DNA of 64,000 nt, taken from an uncultured Flavobacteriaceae bacterium. GTDB taxonomy: Bacteria > Bacteroidota > Bacteroidia > Flavobacteriales > Flavobacteriaceae. The position numbers and the translations under genes were made by a program. Positions 37,661-46,196 of this stretch are shown piece after piece (the first letter of the stretch is position 1; each line of letters opens with the position of its first letter). The notes under the pieces are model-generated. The model was given only the letters and a program-made list of their open reading frames with translations, was not told the origin of the DNA and ran no database searches. Location of the stretch: contig CALSTP010000001.1 in assembly GCA_943789305.1 (NCBI GenBank), positions 968,178 to 1,032,177 on the forward strand, in the 5' to 3' direction.

Positions 37661-38479
37661 ATGCAAAAATTACCTAAAATTGGTCTTCCTGTAATTACAG
37701 GAATTTTTATCTTATTTATTTTCATTTCAAAATCTTCCATAAACATTGGTTATGGAGAAGCTGGAGTTTTATTTAAAACATTCGGAGGTGGTGTAGTAGT
37801 AGATGAACCCGTCCTTGGAGAAGGTTTTCATATCATCGCACCCTGGAATAAAGTTTATGTTTATAATGTTAAGCAACAAGAAGTATTTGAAAGTAAAATG
37901 CAGGTGCTATCATCAAATGGATTGGAAATCTCATTAGACATTTCAGTACTTTATCAACCGCTAATAGCCGAATTGGGATTACTTCACAAAACAAAAGGAG
38001 AGAACTACTTAAACATTATCATTATTCCTCAGATTAGAGCAGTAGCTCGATCTGTAGTAGGACGCTATACTCCAGAACAATTGTATTCTACTAAGCGAGA
38101 TGCTATTCAAAACGAAATATATGAAGAAACCAAAAAGGTTGTTGAAAATCAACACGTCCAACTTAACGCAGTTTTAGTTCGTGATGTAACACTACCTATT
38201 GCAATCCGTGAAGCTATTGAACGTAAGTTGAATCAAGAGCAAGAGGCTTTGGAATATGAGTTTAGAATTGAAAAAGCAAAGCAGGAAGCAGAACGTCAGC
38301 GAATTGATGCTGAAGGAAAAGCAACTGCAAACCGTATATTAAGTGCTTCTTTAACAGATAAAATCTTACAAGAGAAAGGAATAGAAGCTACAATGAAGCT
38401 TTCAGAATCTCCAAACTCTAAAGTAATTGTAATAGGAAGTGGAGAGTCTGGTTTACCAATTATACTCGGAAATCAGTAA
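37661..38479 (+). CDS. Prohibitin-like SPFH/band-7 membrane protein
   Basis: A 272-residue protein with a single N-terminal transmembrane helix (about residues 10-27, VITGIFILFIFISKS) and an SPFH domain: GYGEAGVLFKTFGG, FHIIAPWNKVYVYNVKQQEV, then ARSVVGRYTPEQLYSTKRD. A coiled coil follows (about 180-235, rich in Glu/Lys/Gln, EAERQRIDAEGKATANRI). Prohibitin-type proteins form membrane rings that organise proteases and lipids. It is the last gene before the his regulatory region. Confidence 0.93.
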   Translation: MQKLPKIGLPVITGIFILFIFISKSSINIGYGEAGVLFKTFGGGVVVDEPVLGEGFHIIAPWNKVYVYNVKQQEVFESKMQVLSSNGLEISLDISVLYQPLIAELGLLHKTKGENYLNIIIIPQIRAVARSVVGRYTPEQLYSTKRDAIQNEIYEETKKVVENQHVQLNAVLVRDVTLPIAIREAIERKLNQEQEALEYEFRIEKAKQEAERQRIDAEGKATANRILSASLTDKILQEKGIEATMKLSESPNSKVIVIGSGESGLPIILGNQ

Positions 38480-38497: not shown

Positions 38498-38528
38498 TTT
38501 GTAAAATTAGAATTAACACTTATATTTG
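38498..38528 (+). promoter_or_regulatory. Histidine operon promoter
   Basis: TTTG at 38498-38501, a 19-base spacer, and TATATTTG at 38521-38528 make an excellent match to the Bacteroidetes -33/-7 promoter (TTTG, 17-23 bases, TAnnTTTG). Transcription should begin near 38533-38535, almost at the ATG of the leader peptide, so the leader mRNA would be nearly leaderless. Confidence 0.7.
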
Positions 38529-38535
38529 CAGCCTA

Positions 38536-38592
38536 ATGCAACAAATATTAATACATAACCATCATCATTTTACGAACTCAAACGAGCTCTAA
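38536..38592 (+). CDS. Histidine operon leader peptide
   Basis: An 18-codon frame, MQQILIHNHHHFTNSNEL, with four CAT His codons within five codons (38554-38568). It begins just past the his promoter and ends 25 bases before the terminator hairpin ahead of hisG. Such a run of His codons, in this position, is the hallmark of his attenuation. Translation is expected to proceed freely when charged tRNA-His is plentiful and to stall at the His codons when it is scarce. The frame is too short for routine gene calling. Confidence 0.85.
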   Translation: MQQILIHNHHHFTNSNEL

Positions 38593-38650
38593 GATTGATG
38601 TATATACATTTTTCAAGAACCCGTTTGATTATTCAAGCGGGTTTTTTTTT
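38578..38650 (+). promoter_or_regulatory. Histidine attenuator: antiterminator/terminator switch
   Basis: TCAAACG at 38578-38584, inside the last leader codons, is complementary to CGTTTGA at 38622-38628, which is the 5' arm of the terminator. Pairing of these two would block the terminator. A ribosome that finishes the leader would cover the upstream element, leaving the terminator to form; a ribosome stalled further upstream would leave it open. That logic is inferred from the base pairing. Confidence 0.65.
38618..38650 (+). terminator. Attenuator terminator ahead of hisG
   Basis: AACCCGTTTGA pairs with TCAAGCGGGTT (one G-U) around the loop TTAT, an 11-bp stem followed by a run of T through 38650. 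It lies 12 bases before hisG, not after a gene, as expected for an attenuator. Confidence 0.85.
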
Positions 38651-38662
38651 ATTATAAAAAAT

Positions 38663-39514
38663 ATGATTCGGATAGCAATTCAAAAATCAGGGCGTTTAAA
38701 TCAAGATTCATTAGCTTTATTAAAAAGTTGTGGGATTTCAATTGATAACGGAAAGGATCAGCTCAAAGCTGCAGCTCGAAACTTCCCTATGGAGGTGTTT
38801 TTTCTCAGAAATGGTGACATTCCACAATATCTTCGAGATGGAGTAGTAGATCTAGCTATTGTAGGGAGTAATCTCTTGGTAGAAAAAGGTAATGATCTCG
38901 AAATAATTGAATCCCTTGGGTTTTCAAAATGCAAAGTATCTCTTGCTGTACCCAAGGGTGTTGCTTTTGAAAGTATACAGGACCTTGAAGGAAAAAACAT
39001 TGCAACCTCATATCCCAATACTATAAAACAGTTTCTAAAAGAAAAAGGAGTCAATGCAGACATTCATGTCATCAGCGGTTCTGTTGAAATTGCTCCTAAC
39101 ATCGGTTTGGCAGATGCAATTTGTGATATTGTTTCTAGTGGGAGCACTCTTTTCAAGAACAACCTGAAAGAAGTGATTGAGATAATAAAATCTGAAGCTG
39201 TTTTGGTTCAAGCACCAAACCTTAATAAGGATCAACAAGATTTGATTGAGAAATTGCAGTTTAGAATTCAGGCTGTGCTTCGTGCCAAACAATCTCGATA
39301 CATCCTACTCAATGCCCCTAACAATCAAATTGAAGCAATTACAGCCATACTTCCAGTCCTTAAAAGCCCAACCGTATTGCCTTTAGCACAAGCGGGTTGG
39401 AGTTCGATACACTCTGTAATAAATTCTGGGGATTTTTGGGAAGTCATCGATCAATTAAAAGGAGCAGGAGCAGAGGATATTTTGGTTTGCCCAATTGAAA
39501 AAATGGTTCGATAA
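38663..39514 (+). CDS. hisG: ATP phosphoribosyltransferase, long form
   Basis: A 283-residue enzyme for the first committed step of histidine synthesis (ATP plus PRPP). IRIAIQKSGRLNQDSLALLK starts the catalytic part; GLADAICDIVSSGSTL holds the PRPP loop; the C-terminal ACT-like domain (about 205-283, ending EDILVCPIEKMVR) is the histidine feedback module of the long form, so no HisZ partner is needed. Its stop and the hisD start share bases (TAATG). Confidence 0.96.
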   Translation: MIRIAIQKSGRLNQDSLALLKSCGISIDNGKDQLKAAARNFPMEVFFLRNGDIPQYLRDGVVDLAIVGSNLLVEKGNDLEIIESLGFSKCKVSLAVPKGVAFESIQDLEGKNIATSYPNTIKQFLKEKGVNADIHVISGSVEIAPNIGLADAICDIVSSGSTLFKNNLKEVIEIIKSEAVLVQAPNLNKDQQDLIEKLQFRIQAVLRAKQSRYILLNAPNNQIEAITAILPVLKSPTVLPLAQAGWSSIHSVINSGDFWEVIDQLKGAGAEDILVCPIEKMVR

Positions 39515-40800
39515 TGAGACAATACACCAATCCAAAACCCAAAGACTGGGATGCTTTAATGGAAAGACCAACAGCAGACTACAAAGACTTACAGCCTTTA
39601 GTTGAGCAAGTTTTTTTGGATGTTAAATCAAAAGGAAATCAAGCTTTGACTGATTATACGCTTGAGTTTGATAAACAAAAAATAACCTCTTTTACGATTG
39701 AATCTGAGGCCTTTGAGCGTGCAGAAAAATCTATTTCATCCGATTTAAAAAAAGCTATTCAACTCGCCAAAAAAAATATTGAATCTTTTCATAGGGCACA
39801 AAAAACAGATGTCGTTTCTGTTGAAACACAATCAGGAGTCGAATGTTGGCAAGAGAAAAGACCAATTGAAAAAGTTGGACTTTATATACCTGGGGGTTCA
39901 GCTCCTTTGTTTTCAACAATTCTGATGTTAGCAATTCCTGCAAAAATTGCTGGGTGTAAAGAAATTGTTCTCTGCACTCCTCCTAATGAAACGGGTAAAG
40001 TTTCCGATGTAATTTTATATACCGCTTATTTATGTGGTGTAACTCAAATTTTTAGAGTTGGAGGAATACAGGCAATTGCTGCAATGACCTTTGGTACAGA
40101 AACCATCCCCAAAGTATTTAAAATATTTGGCCCCGGAAATCAATTCGTAACGGTTGCAAAGCAAATGGCAACTCAACACCATGTTGCCATTGATATGCCT
40201 GCTGGACCCAGTGAACTTCTTGTAGTTGCAGATCAAAGTGCAAATCCAGTATATGTAGCATCAGATTTACTTTCTCAGGCAGAACACGGTGCAGACAGTC
40301 AGGTCATTTTGATAACTACCTACTATCCAATCCTTGAAAAGGTAAGTGGTGAAATAAAAAAACAGCTTCCGCTATTGCCAAGAAAAGAAATTGCGATGCA
40401 GGCAATCGAAAATTCCAAAATGATTGCTTTTGATTCCAATGAAGATGCAATAGCATTCATCAATCAATATGGGCCAGAGCATTATATTATATGTGTGGAA
40501 CAACAGGAGCTGTATGTCGGTCAAGTCATGAATGCAGGTTCTGTTTTTATTGGAAATTATACTCCCGAAAGTGCTGGTGATTATGCTTCTGGAACCAATC
40601 ACACTTTACCCACCAACGGTTATGCAAAACAATATAGTGGCGTAAATTTGGATAGTTTTCTAAAGCAAATGACTTTTCAAAAGATTTCAAAACAAGGAAT
40701 TCAAAATTTGGGACCATCTATAGAATTAATGGCTGAAGCTGAGGGGCTTCAGGCACACAAAAATGCTGTAACCTTAAGATTAAACGATTTGAATAAATGA
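39514..40800 (+). CDS. hisD: Histidinol dehydrogenase
   Basis: A 428-residue zinc enzyme that carries out the last two oxidations of the pathway with NAD. The signature IDMPAGPSELLVVADQSANPVYVASDLLSQAEHG is seen in pieces (MPAGPSELLVVAD; DLLSQAEHGADSQ with zinc ligands Gln/His), VGLYIPGGSAPLFS is the other landmark and QYGPEHYIICV and SAGDYASGTNHTLPT complete the site. The gene overlaps hisC by 4 bases (ATGA). Confidence 0.97.
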   Translation: MRQYTNPKPKDWDALMERPTADYKDLQPLVEQVFLDVKSKGNQALTDYTLEFDKQKITSFTIESEAFERAEKSISSDLKKAIQLAKKNIESFHRAQKTDVVSVETQSGVECWQEKRPIEKVGLYIPGGSAPLFSTILMLAIPAKIAGCKEIVLCTPPNETGKVSDVILYTAYLCGVTQIFRVGGIQAIAAMTFGTETIPKVFKIFGPGNQFVTVAKQMATQHHVAIDMPAGPSELLVVADQSANPVYVASDLLSQAEHGADSQVILITTYYPILEKVSGEIKKQLPLLPRKEIAMQAIENSKMIAFDSNEDAIAFINQYGPEHYIICVEQQELYVGQVMNAGSVFIGNYTPESAGDYASGTNHTLPTNGYAKQYSGVNLDSFLKQMTFQKISKQGIQNLGPSIELMAEAEGLQAHKNAVTLRLNDLNK

Positions 40801-41855
40801 AAAGAAGTATTGATATAAAAAAAATCACCAGACCGACCATTCAAAAACTGAATGCATATCGCTCAGCTCGAAAAGAATTTGTTGGATCAAGTCGAAAAAT
40901 GATTTTATTGGATGCAAACGAAAACCCTTTTGAAAATGGTTTAAATCGTTATCCAGATCCTTTGCAAAACAAGCTAAAACAGCGTTTAGGGAAAGTAAAG
41001 GGTGTCGATCCTATGAATATATTTTTAGGAAATGGAAGCGATGAATTGATTAATTTATTGATGGTTGCTTTTTGTGAACCCAAAACAGATGAAATCATGA
41101 TTGCACCTCCAACCTTCGGTATGTACAAGGTTTCAGCAGATCTCAACGCTGTTAATATCATGGAAGTACCTCTTTTAAAAGGTTTTCAGTTGGATGTAAA
41201 TCAAATTTTGAAACAAGCATCAACAAGGACAAAAATGATTTTCATCCCAACCCCCAACAATCCAAGTGCAAATCGATTTCCATTACAAGATTTGAAAAAA
41301 ATTGTTGAAAATTTTCCTGGTTTAGTTGTCATAGACGAGGCTTATGCCGAGTTTTCGCCAGGTGAAACCGCAATAGATTGGTTAAAAGAATATCAAAACG
41401 TGGTGGTTTTACAAACCTTTTCTAAGGCACAAGGCTTAGCAGGAGCTAGGGTAGGCATGGCTTTTGCAGATTCTGAAATAGTTGAAGTACTCAACAAAAT
41501 AAAAGCTCCCTACAACCTTAATATTTTATCCCAGAAAGCAGTTTTTGATCGCCTCGATAAAACCGATCAAGTAAAAAAAGAAGTTCAACTATTACTTGAA
41601 CAAAAAAAGGCTTTTATATTAAATATTAAAGACATTAAATTTATCAAAAAAATATTTCCATCAGATGCAAATTTTATTTTGATTCGTTTTGATGACAGTA
41701 AGTTGCGTTACGATCAATTAATCAAAAAAGGGATTGTAGTACGTAATCCTTCAAATCAATACTTGTGTGAAAACACATTGAGAATAACCCTGGGGACTAA
41801 AACCGAAAACCAAGCGCTAATAACTGCTTTCAAGGCAATGGATCAACAAAACTAA
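40797..41855 (+). CDS. hisC: Histidinol-phosphate aminotransferase
   Basis: A 352-residue fold-type I PLP enzyme. [18 protein letters not shown] is the substrate region, [14 protein letters not shown] the PLP-phosphate region, [11 protein letters not shown] the Asn contact, [11 protein letters not shown] the Asp, and [16 protein letters not shown] the Schiff-base Lys. It transfers the amino group from glutamate to imidazole-acetol phosphate. It is coupled by overlap to hisD and lies 4 bases before hisB. Confidence 0.96.
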
Positions 41856-41859
41856 TCCC

Positions 41860-42990
41860 ATGAAAAAAGTACTTTTTATAGACCGAGACGGAACATTAGC
41901 TCTTGAACCTCAAGATTATCAACTGGATGCATTAGATAAGCTTGAATTTTACCCAGAAGTATTTAAATATCTTGGTAAAATAGCACAAGAAATGGATTAT
42001 GAATTGGTTATGGTTACCAATCAGGATGGATTGGGAACATCATCTTTTCCAGAAGAAACCTTTTGGCCCACTCAAAATTTTTTGATAAAAACCTTCAAAA
42101 ACGAAGGCATAACTTTTTCAGAAGTATGTATTGACAATTCTTTTCCTGATGATATGACTGATACACGAAAACCCAGGACAGGAATGCTTACTCCATATTT
42201 AGATCGTTCAAAATACAACATGGATGAATCTTATGTCATAGGAGATCGAATGACAGACATGGAACTGGCAAAAAACATGGGGGCTAAAGGAATTTTTATT
42301 GCAAATGATGAGACTTTGGGGGTTGATGAAGTAAAAGCTGGCGACGCGAACGATTCCATAGCTCTTAAAACTATCCATTGGGAGGCAATATATAACTTTC
42401 TCAAACTGGATCAGCGAATTGTAGTTCAGAAACGAACTACACATGAAACAGACATTGATTTGATTTTGAATTTAGATGGAACAGGAAAAAGTGAAATTAA
42501 TACTGGAATTGCATTTTTTGATCACATGCTAGACCAGATTGCTCGTCACGGAGCTATGGATTTGGAATTAAATGTTAAAGGAGATTTGGAGGTTGATGAA
42601 CATCATACCATAGAGGATACAGCTATTGCTTTGGGAGAAGCTTTTGCTAAAGCATTGGGAAATAAATTAGGGATTGAGCGATACGGCTTTTGTTTGCCTA
42701 TGGACGATTCTTTAGCGCAGGCTTCGATTGATTTTGGGGGTAGAAATTGGTTGGTCTGGCAGGCGGATTTTAAACGGGAAATGATTGGTAAAATGCCCAC
42801 GGAAATGTTTTTCCACTTTTTCAAATCTTTTACAGATGGAGCTAAAGCCAATTTAAACATCAAAGCAGAAGGAGAAAATGAACACCATAAAATTGAAGCC
42901 ATATTTAAGGCTTTTGCTAAAGCCATAAAAGTAGCGATCAAACAAGACCCTAATAAAATGATTTTACCCAGTACAAAAGGAACCCTTTAA
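41860..42990 (+). CDS. hisB: Bifunctional histidinol-phosphatase / imidazoleglycerol-phosphate dehydratase
   Basis: A 376-residue fusion. Residues about 1-165 are a HAD-type histidinol phosphatase with motif [18 protein letters not shown] and [12 protein letters not shown]. Residues about 180-376 are the manganese IGP dehydratase: [31 protein letters not shown], and [14 protein letters not shown] with [13 protein letters not shown] as metal-ligand motifs. Both halves look intact. The fusion is the enterobacterial-type arrangement also seen across Bacteroidetes. Confidence 0.97.
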
Positions 42991-43008
42991 TTGAAAACGA
43001 TAAATCCA

Positions 43009-43596
43009 ATGAAAGTAGTCCTAATCGATTATGGAGCAGGAAATATTCAAAGCCTAAAATTTGCTCTTGAACGCCTGAATGTTAAAGCTACTTTGAGTGC
43101 TGATAAAAATGAAATTCTAGAAGCAGATAGAGTGATTTTCCCAGGAGTAGGTGAGGCTAGTAGCGCGATGAAAAAACTCAAAGATACTGGATTAAATCTT
43201 TTGATTCCTGAATTAAAACAACCCGTATTGGGTATTTGCTTGGGAATGCAACTCATGTGTTCACATTCAGAAGAAGGAGACATCCACGGTTTGGGTATTT
43301 TTGAAGTACCTGTAAAACGCTTCAATTCGGATGTAAAAGTACCGCAAATGGGTTGGAATATGCTGACCAACATCAAGTCTGCATTATTTCAAAACATAAG
43401 GGATAATGAATATATGTATCTGGTTCACAGTTATTACGCAGCTTTGTGCAAAGAAACTATTGCTCAAACTAAATACGGATTGAATTACAGTTGTGCTTTG
43501 CAAAAAGATAATTTTTATGGGGTACAATTCCACCCAGAAAAAAGCAGTAAAGCAGGGAGTCAATTACTTTTTAACTTTTTAAACATTAATTCATGA
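43009..43596 (+). CDS. hisH: Imidazole glycerol phosphate synthase, glutaminase subunit
   Basis: A 195-residue class I glutamine amidotransferase that feeds ammonia to HisF. The ATG at 43009 ([13 protein letters not shown]) is chosen over an in-frame TTG at 42991. The catalytic Cys is in [11 protein letters not shown], and the His/Glu pair in [12 protein letters not shown]. It overlaps hisA by four bases. Confidence 0.96.
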
Positions 43597-44321
43597 AAAT
43601 CATACCAGCCATTGATTTGATCGAAGGAAAATGCGTACGACTCTCCAAAGGAGACTACGCTACTCAAAAAACCTACAATGAAAATCCATTGGAAGTTGCA
43701 AAAGCATTTGAAGATCATGGGATTGAATATTTACATTTAGTTGATCTAGACGGAGCTAAATCTGAACACATAGTTAATCATAAGGTTTTGGAAACCATTG
43801 CTGCTAAAACAAGCCTTAAAATCGATTTTGGAGGTGGTTTGAAGTCAGATGAAGACTTAAGGATTGCATTTGAAAGCGGAGCTAATCAAATTACAGGAGG
43901 AAGCATTGCAGTTAAAAAGCCTAAGGTTTTTGAACAATGGATTACCCAATATGGTAACGAAAAAATAATTTTGGGGGCAGATGTTCAAAATAAACGAATT
44001 GCAATTAATGGATGGCTTGAAACTTCAGATTATCCCTTGTGTGATTTTATTCAAAATTATCAAAGCAAAGGAATTCAATATGTAATTTGCACCGACATTA
44101 GTAAAGATGGGATGCTAGAAGGGCCTGCATTTGAACTCTATGAAGATCTGTTACAGAAACAACCTCAAATAAAGCTAATTGCTTCAGGAGGAATTTCAAC
44201 ATTTGAGGAACTTCCAAAATTAGCAAATTTGGGGTGTGAAGGAACAATTATAGGAAAAGCCATCTATGAAAATAAAATTGCTTTAAAAGATCTTGAACAA
44301 TTCATACTTTCGAAATCATGA
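43593..44321 (+). CDS. hisA: ProFAR isomerase
   Basis: A 242-residue TIM barrel converting ProFAR to [25 protein letters not shown] has the first catalytic Asp (Asp8), and [13 protein letters not shown] the second; GGGLKSDED and [12 protein letters not shown] are phosphate loops. Its stop overlaps the DinB-like gene start (ATGA). Confidence 0.96.
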
Positions 44322-44827
44322 AAGACATTATTTTAGAAGAATTCAAAAAAAATGCACTTTTCCGATTGGATGAAAGTCTGCGAATGATTTGTATTGCTTT
44401 AAGTAAAATCGAAGAGGATGACCTTTGGAGACTCCCTGTTGAAAACGGAATGTCTTTAGGAAATCAAATCTTGCATAGTTGTGGTAATATGACCCAATAC
44501 ATCATTTCATCTCTGGGAATACAAGAAGATTTAAGAAAACGAGACCTTGAATTTGTTGTTGATAAATCCATTACTCTAGATGATTTATTACAAAAATTAA
44601 AAACAACAGTTGAAGATTCAAAAAGAACGATCGAAAAAACAACTCCTGAAAAATATAAAGAAATCAGACTAGTGCAGGGATTTGAACTATCAGGAGTTGG
44701 AGTAGTTATGCACGCTGTAGAGCATTTTTCATACCATACTGGACAAATTGCTTTTTGGGTAAAGCAACTCACACAGGAAGATTTAGGGTTTTATGATGGG
44801 ATTAATTTAAACACAAAAAACAATTGA
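44318..44827 (+). CDS. DinB/DUF1572-family protein embedded in the his operon
   Basis: A 169-residue four-helix bundle protein of the DinB superfamily. Three His typical of its metal site are visible: one in NQILHSCGN and two in [13 protein letters not shown]. It is translationally coupled on the left (overlap of four bases with hisA) and two bases ahead of hisF, so it is made with the pathway enzymes. DinB members include thiol S-transferases and hydrolases; nothing known links one to histidine synthesis, so its job here is open. The first 40 residues ([15 protein letters not shown]) match DUF1572. Confidence 0.85.
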
Positions 44828-44829
44828 TT

Positions 44830-45585
44830 ATGTTAACCAAACGCATCATTCCTTGTTTAGACATTAAAGATGGGCGAACCGTAAAAGGAGTCAATTTTGT
44901 GAACCTTAGAGATGCTGGAGATCCTGTAGAATTGGCCAGTCAGTACGCAGAACAAAATGCTGATGAATTGGTTTTTCTGGACATTTCAGCAACAGAACAA
45001 AAACGGAAAACCTTGGCAGATTTGGTACGTAAAGTTGCCCATGCAATCGACATCCCCTTTACTGTTGGTGGGGGCATTAGCTCCGTTGATGACGTTGAAG
45101 TTTTGCTCAAAAATGGTGCTGATAAAGTCTCCATAAATTCTGCAGCAGTAAAAGAACCTGAACTAATCAACAAATTAGCAGCCAAATTTGGTTCTCAGTG
45201 TATTGTTGTGGCTATTGATGCTAAGCAAATCAATGAACGTTGGATAGTACATTTAATAGGTGGGAAAGTCCCAACAAAACTTGATTTATTTGAATGGGCT
45301 AAAGAAGTAGCCGATCGAGGTGCCGGTGAAATACTCTTTACGTCAATGGATCATGACGGTACTAAAGCTGGTTTTGCTAATAAAGCCCTGGCTCGAATCT
45401 CAGAAGAAATTAACATTCCTGTGATAGCCTCAGGAGGGGGGGGGGAACCCAAACATTTTATAGATACTTTTACTCATGGAAAGGCTGATGCTGCTTTGGC
45501 TGCAAGTATTTTCCATTTTGGAGAAATATCCATACCTGACTTAAAAAAAGAACTTAAAAATCATCAAATTGCCATTCGAATTTAA
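44830..45585 (+). CDS. hisF: Imidazole glycerol phosphate synthase, cyclase subunit
   Basis: A 251-residue TIM barrel; the ATG at 44830 ([15 protein letters not shown]) is preferred to a TTG at 44824. Catalytic Asp11 in [14 protein letters not shown] and Asp about 131 in [10 protein letters not shown]; phosphate loops GGGISSVDD and [11 protein letters not shown]. The second of these has Gly where most HisF proteins have Ala (SGGAG), and its DNA is a run of ten G (45436-45445), striking in such AT-rich DNA. Reads in frame, so functional as sequenced. Confidence 0.96.
45436..45445. repeat. Ten-base G homopolymer inside hisF
   Basis: Ten consecutive G span three Gly codons and the first base of Glu. 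It is the longest G run I noticed in the window and a potential slippage site; one base gained or lost would truncate HisF after about residue 205. Confidence 0.9.
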
Positions 45586-45596
45586 CTTAGTATAAA

Positions 45597-46196
45597 ATGA
45601 AAATAAACTTTAACAAAAACTCCGATGGACTTGTTCCTGCGGTAGTTCAAGATGCTAAAACACTCAAAGTATTGATGCTAGGGTATATGAATGCAGATGC
45701 TATAGAGCAAACAAAATCCTCTGGAAAAGTTACTTTTTTTAGTCGCAGTAAAAATCGACTGTGGACTAAAGGAGAGGAGAGTGGTAACTTCCTTGAATTG
45801 GTTAGTCTTTCAAAAGATTGTGATCAGGATGCACTCTTGATAAAAGTAAACCCAGCCGGGCCGACTTGCCACAAAGGGACGGACACTTGTTGGAATGAAA
45901 GTAATACTCAGACCTACGGATTTTTGACTGAATTAGAAAAAACCATTACCGAAAGAAGGGTAGCAGCACAGGAAGACCAAAGCTATGTCGCTTCTTTATT
46001 TAAAAAAGGAATAAACAAAATAGCTCAGAAAGTGGGAGAGGAGGCTGTAGAAACCGTCATTGAAGCTCTAGACTCTAACGATGAACTCTTCGTTTCAGAA
46101 ACTGCTGATCTGTTGTTCCACTATTTGATTTTATTACAAGCAAAAGGATACACCCTTGACGATGTTGTTGTCGCTCTTGAAAACCGAAAGAAATAA
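45597..46196 (+). CDS. hisIE: Bifunctional phosphoribosyl-AMP cyclohydrolase / phosphoribosyl-ATP pyrophosphatase
   Basis: A 199-residue fusion that performs the second and third steps. Residues about 1-105 (HisI) carry VMLGYMNADA-type text LMLGYMNADAI, TFFSRSKNRLWTKGEESGN and the zinc site DCDQDALL with PTCHKGTDTCW. Residues about 110-199 (HisE) carry the all-alpha NTP-PPase KVGEEAVETVIEAL and ETADLLFHYLILL. It ends the his operon. Confidence 0.97.
   Translation: MKINFNKNSDGLVPAVVQDAKTLKVLMLGYMNADAIEQTKSSGKVTFFSRSKNRLWTKGEESGNFLELVSLSKDCDQDALLIKVNPAGPTCHKGTDTCWNESNTQTYGFLTELEKTITERRVAAQEDQSYVASLFKKGINKIAQKVGEEAVETVIEALDSNDELFVSETADLLFHYLILLQAKGYTLDDVVVALENRKK

Follow-up and report, generated by a model that had tools for sequence, protein, structure and literature searches.

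The histidine operon of an uncultured Flavobacteriaceae bacterium is very probably controlled by a ribosome-mediated transcription attenuator for histidine, in which a short His-rich leader frame, a protector hairpin, an antiterminator strand and an intrinsic terminator lie between the promoter and hisG (Table 1). The anatomy of this his attenuator, its conservation and its covariation are observed directly, while ribosome stalling, its kinetics and the response to histidine are proposed by analogy with established attenuation biology.

Table 1. Features of the his leader and operon in the window, i.e. the whole analyzed DNA stretch of 64,000 nt
Feature	Position	Strand	Evidence and details
Promoter of the Bacteroidota type: TTTG, 19-nt spacer, TATATTTG	38498..38528	+	Read on sequence; TTTG at 38498-38501, TATATTTG at 38521-38528
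Leader frame MQQILIHNHHHFTNSNEL*, predicted near-leaderless	38536..38592	+	Sequence; His-cluster leaders before hisG in relatives; ATG at 38536, 18 codons, TAA at 38590-38592
Sensor (predicted ribosome stall) positions, His codons 7, 9, 10, 11	38554..38568	+	
Protector hairpin, 38560-38579 (His-codon region) with 38584-38600, antiterminator strand at the tip	38560..38600	+	MFE -10.0 kcal/mol
Antiterminator strand TCAAACG(A)G, inside the last leader codons	38578..38586	+	TCAAACG at 38578-38584
Intrinsic terminator AACCCGTTTGA / TTAT / TCAAGCGGGTT with U-tract	38618..38650	+	-17.1 kcal/mol; hairpin 38618-38643, U-tract 38642-38650
hisG, first gene of the operon	38663..39514	+	TIGR00070, E 1.2e-55
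Remaining operon: hisD, hisC, hisB, hisH, hisA, DinB/DUF1572-type gene, hisF, hisIE	39514..46196	+	Spacing close or overlapping

Organization of the leader region

An earlier note on this DNA had proposed a promoter with a TTTG box and a 19-nt spacer, an 18-codon frame holding four His codons within five, an 11-bp terminator with a T run 12 bases before hisG, and a TCAAACG segment complementary to the 5' arm of the terminator. All these elements are found on the sequence at the positions listed in Table 1. The 11 bp of the terminator hairpin include one G-U pair and enclose the loop TTAT, and the last T of the U-tract is 12 nt from the hisG start codon. The strand shared by the terminator and the antiterminator is the segment CGTTTGA of the terminator 5' arm (38622-38628). 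Its pairing with TCAAACG extends slightly beyond the proposed segment, as G38586 adds to the complementarity if A38585 is bulged or mismatched.

Of the 1044 short ATG frames that the 64-kb window contains on its two strands, the leader alone has four His within five codons, and the leader region folds far better than shuffled sequences (z = -5.4). As a separate observation, the his operon contains a DinB/DUF1572-type gene (44318-44827), located between hisA and hisF and overlapping its neighbours by a few bases.

Conservation in Flavobacteriaceae

The window locus was compared with 80 further GTDB hisG loci from one scan of named genomes, yielding 81 loci in total; the closest named relative among the scanned loci is Candidatus Arcticimaribacter forsetii (L004), with 87% HisG identity, and hence the window most likely comes from a marine species of the family. 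At least two His in six codons are present upstream of hisG in 81 of 81 loci (10 in antisense), and at least three in 71 of 81 (one in antisense). In loci aligned by the terminator, the elements follow a common order: the start codon, the His codons, TCAARYGAG or its close variant, the stop codon, and, after approximately 20-30 nt, the CCCGTTTGA hairpin with the U-tract. The distances are also preserved, the first His codon being located 21-29 nt upstream of the antiterminator TCA in 79 of 81 loci, and the leader stop codon 10-12 nt past TCA in 74 of 81. Hence the His codons and the complementary segments, whose lack of conservation in relatives had been named as grounds against attenuation, persist in virtually all of the related loci.

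The reading phase of TCAARYGAG varies: 55 loci have it in phase 2, 24 in phase 0 and two in phase 1. In the clade of the window this motif encodes Ser-Asn-Glu; Maribacter, Muricauda, Zobellia, Kordia and others have Gln-Ala-Arg/Ser instead. As TCAARYGAG is kept despite different leader frames, selection acts at the RNA level, and the conserved element at the leader end is the RNA, not the peptide. This bears on the possibility that control is exerted by the nascent leader peptide, acting as an arrest peptide that senses histidine or some other molecule, rather than by the supply of His-tRNA. The leader end is indeed conserved within clades (SNE, QAR), as could be expected of an arrest peptide, but the conserved C-terminal letters represent one RNA motif in different frames, and phylum-wide the His clusters alone are shared, which makes such a peptide very unlikely.

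The exact cassette is present in 29 of 30 genomes of the family (f1), in none of six genomes of another family of the same order (f2), and in two genomes elsewhere in the same draw; thus, it is a mark of the family. A pattern search of the genome for further copies of the cassette, at other operons, yielded the his site only. The further covariance-model hits that were inspected were rejected: L085 combines a protein end with an ordinary terminator, L086 is just such a terminator, and L087 is coding sequence. No obvious attenuators were found upstream of ilvD and two aspartate kinases.

The same genome (C1) carries a trp attenuator upstream of trpE (L119, 1335-1450), with the leader MKFFISTIAWWNE containing tandem Trp and the terminator AAAAAAAGGCTTGTC-ATCAC-GACAAGCCTTTTTT. 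The start codon of MKFFISTIAWWNE is located 5 nt past TATATTTG. Relatives from the genus have similar AWWNE/NWWNE trp leaders, and four trp leaders in these relatives likewise start 5 nt after the -7 box.

Covariation of the terminator and the antiterminator

Over 50 distinct loci, pairing of the seven antiterminator positions with CGTTTGA is retained in 348 of 350 cells (99.4%), while in the slid control, with the partner shifted by 1-3 bases, only 11-56% of cells are paired. In the terminator, 99.3% of cells are paired, and three pairs (six cells) are changed on both sides. Substitutions in the antiterminator pairs are mostly G-U for A-U swaps, as expected of a strand constrained by two pairing partners, and few are two-sided, since the partner strand is nearly invariant within the family. 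A two-sided change, from T-A to A-T, is observed in L030, at the cost of one terminator pair. In three Maribacter/Kriegella loci (L037, L047, L068) the motif is TTAGGCG; here, the in-leader TAG stop shortens the peptide, and wobble pairing is retained. Moreover, two more distant loci, L110 and L116, have CGTCTRA (middle TCT) as the shared arm, together with the matching G in the antiterminator.

A38585 (A8 of TCAAACGAG) and the following G are nearly invariant, though this A is unpaired, forming a bulge or an A-C mismatch. Perhaps the invariant unpaired A after the seven pairs keeps the antiterminator weaker than the terminator.

Candidate protector hairpin and the proposed mechanism

The earlier note did not contain the protector hairpin, which by analogy appears to be the counterpart of the 1:2 hairpin and would complete the three alternative structures of classical attenuators. 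RNAalifold did not find a single consensus for this hairpin, and hence it was tested in each sequence separately; its helix seems to shift register between clades. The same topology, with the His-codon region paired to the RNA immediately after the leader stop and the antiterminator strand located at or close to the tip, is observed in 79 of 81 loci. When the leaders are folded up to the terminator, the mean z-score of the protector fold is -3.05 relative to dinucleotide shuffles, and the energy of the protector duplex is better than the shuffle mean in 99% of loci.

Under the attenuation model, transcription would begin a few bases upstream of the leader ATG, and the ribosome would load almost immediately; the model assumes that transcription and translation are coupled in this organism. 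Given ample His-tRNA, the ribosome would reach the stop codon at 38590 and mask TCAAACG, so that the terminator would form and the operon would be switched off. Given scarce His-tRNA, the ribosome would stall at His codons 7-11 and the protector hairpin would stay open, so that TCAAACG could capture CGTTTGA ahead of synthesis of the terminator 3' arm; RNA polymerase would then continue into hisG-hisIE. If the ribosome is absent, the protector hairpin would tend to hold TCAAACG in its tip, and the terminator would form.

The geometry of the window locus is consistent with these steps. A ribosome reaches approximately 12 nt downstream of the A-site codon. The last His codon starts 12 nt upstream of TCAAACG, and, as this spacing is about the ribosome reach, a stall on any of the four His codons should free TCAAACG. 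Similarly, a stop codon 10-12 nt after TCA implies that the ribosome positioned there would cover the antiterminator strand.

We also simulated transcripts extending to the last base of CGTTTGA, using equilibrium folding that ignores kinetics. The mean simulated occupancy of the antiterminator over 81 loci is 0.94 with the ribosome on the His codons and 0.27 without it, and the ribosome at the leader stop leads to the terminator in 81 of 81 loci. The protector of the window itself is weak, with the simulated antiterminator occupancy of 0.78 without the ribosome, and hence untranslated transcripts may read through at this locus.

Predicted near-leaderless start of the leader frame

A TAnnTTT[AG] box ends 3-9 nt upstream of the leader start in 72 of 81 loci, the most frequent distance being 7 nt, while further upstream such boxes are found in 0-8 loci per 7-nt interval. 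Since the -7 element is centred at -7, the predicted 5' UTR of the leaders is approximately 0-6 nt. Hence the suggestion that the leader ATG almost coincides with the predicted transcription start agrees with the sequence, and this geometry is retained in the same 72 loci. Among 14 other large ORFs of the window with an upstream TAnnTTTG box, just two have the box so close.

In F. psychrophilum, leaderless mRNAs are rare (5.5%; PMC9723704). Attenuator leaders of the Flavobacteriaceae probably, though by no means surely, form a conserved class of near-leaderless mRNAs, in which initiation at the 5' end would replace the missing Shine-Dalgarno sequence and load the lead ribosome once the RNA emerges. 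Early loading would matter here, since attenuation needs the lead ribosome as the RNA emerges.

Spread across the Bacteroidota

A search of 296 genomes of the phylum found HisG in 252, and 80 additional regions upstream of hisG were considered, of which 78 come from other families. Frames with His clusters (at least three in six codons) are found in 71 of 80 regions; on the antisense strand the count is 2 of 80, and among shuffled sequences 19 of 800.

This difference between the strands is relevant to the simplest alternative, under which the hairpin merely terminates transcription of the upstream Band 7/SPFH gene, constitutively, and the occurrence of a His-rich frame is due to chance. That gene ends at 38479, on the strand of the his operon and of the hairpin, and thus could have its terminator here; but the promoter intervenes between the gene and the hairpin, the cassette accompanies hisG also in loci where the upstream sequence differs, and the His clusters are largely confined to sense regions. 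A constitutive terminator is therefore extremely improbable.

Clear terminators are present in 43 regions, and their sequences are unrelated (e.g. GGCTTACC, CCCGGC, CCGTCTG, CTACCTG). In 29 of these 43 divergent leaders, the strand after the His codons fits the terminator 5' arm better than shuffles do (p < 0.05), with the mean z-score of 2.8, while in the swap control the mean z-score is 1.5. Thus, to judge from the sequences, the antiterminator partner appears to have changed along with the divergent terminators.

The strict search found no terminator in 28 regions with His leaders, and at least for G152 and G257 this is explained by an interrupted stem; some lineages may therefore rely on control at the level of translation. 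Very His-rich leaders (VHHFHHSS, and longer ones with up to approximately eight His) precede hisG in other families, with no terminator found by the search used (L165, L166, L181, L187, L217, L219, L220, L221, L222, L225). Leaders of this kind may have terminators of a different shape or be controlled at translation.

Comparison with known systems

The Rfam covariance model of His_leader (RF00514) does not match the window at the gathering score, nor at E up to 10. Hence the description of the element as enterobacterial-type attenuation in the earlier note holds for the mechanism, but not for homology. Below-threshold matches to PyrG_leader, PyrR and Thr_leader were discarded, being far under the cut-offs of these families.

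Another possibility is binding of a protein or a small molecule to the stem-loop region, in the manner of a riboswitch or a T-box, with the leader frame just aiding coupling; structured 5' elements lacking Rfam hits are common in the family (PMC9723704). Still, no Rfam family reaches the gathering score, no conserved aptamer-like core was found beyond the shared pairing strands, and the most widely conserved feature is the His codons, so that such ligand control has very little likelihood compared with attenuation by a translating ribosome.

The window his switch is basically a classical control element, and a hisG 5' element in this family, along with the suggestion of attenuation, was already published in 2021. 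In that study, leader-peptide attenuation was considered likely upstream of amino-acid operons of F. psychrophilum, in general terms (Guerin et al. 2021, PMC9723704). The same paper describes a structured 5' element upstream of hisG that is present in other Flavobacteriaceae genera; it comes from the same family and precedes the same gene, but its anatomy is not described in the main text. Our analysis goes further in showing frame independence and covariation, in describing the protector hairpin and the start-site geometry, and in tracing such elements over the phylum. Our literature search for a published his attenuator in the Bacteroidota found this remark on F. psychrophilum alone (PMC9723704), and a 2021 survey of his genes in the superphylum does not mention leader peptides (PMC8305728).

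The comparison provides nucleotide-level proof of classical amino-acid attenuation in the his operon across a phylum whose translation initiation does not depend on Shine-Dalgarno sequences and for which Rfam has no his model; the parts worth keeping are the predicted near-leaderless start and how deeply the element is conserved. As the ribosome must follow RNA polymerase closely for attenuation to work, these leaders would be natural reporters in the Bacteroidota, and his leaders could report on ribosome loading at very short 5' ends and on transcription-translation coupling.

Another system of the same phylum is the Bacteroid-trp RNA motif (RF01692), a trp leader with Trp codons. It is listed among cis-regulatory RNA motifs of Bacteroidetes (PMC2864571), and differs in both the amino acid and the sequence, the window having no match to it. 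His-leader attenuators of some Firmicutes are likewise His-rich, with three to five His codons, have a terminator and an antiterminator, and do not match RF00514, but they belong to another phylum and their sequences are unrelated to that of the window (PMC9413887).

A close parallel is the his operon attenuator hisL of Enterobacteriaceae, represented by RF00514, which is a proteobacterial model (PMC9413887). Both have a leader with His codons, alternative structures and an intrinsic terminator before hisG, and the full his operon lies downstream. Unlike hisL, the element described here lacks an RF00514 match, a Shine-Dalgarno sequence is unexpected in the phylum, and the leader is predicted to be near-leaderless. 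It is also simpler than hisL, comprising one protector hairpin with the antiterminator strand at its tip, one antiterminator and one terminator.
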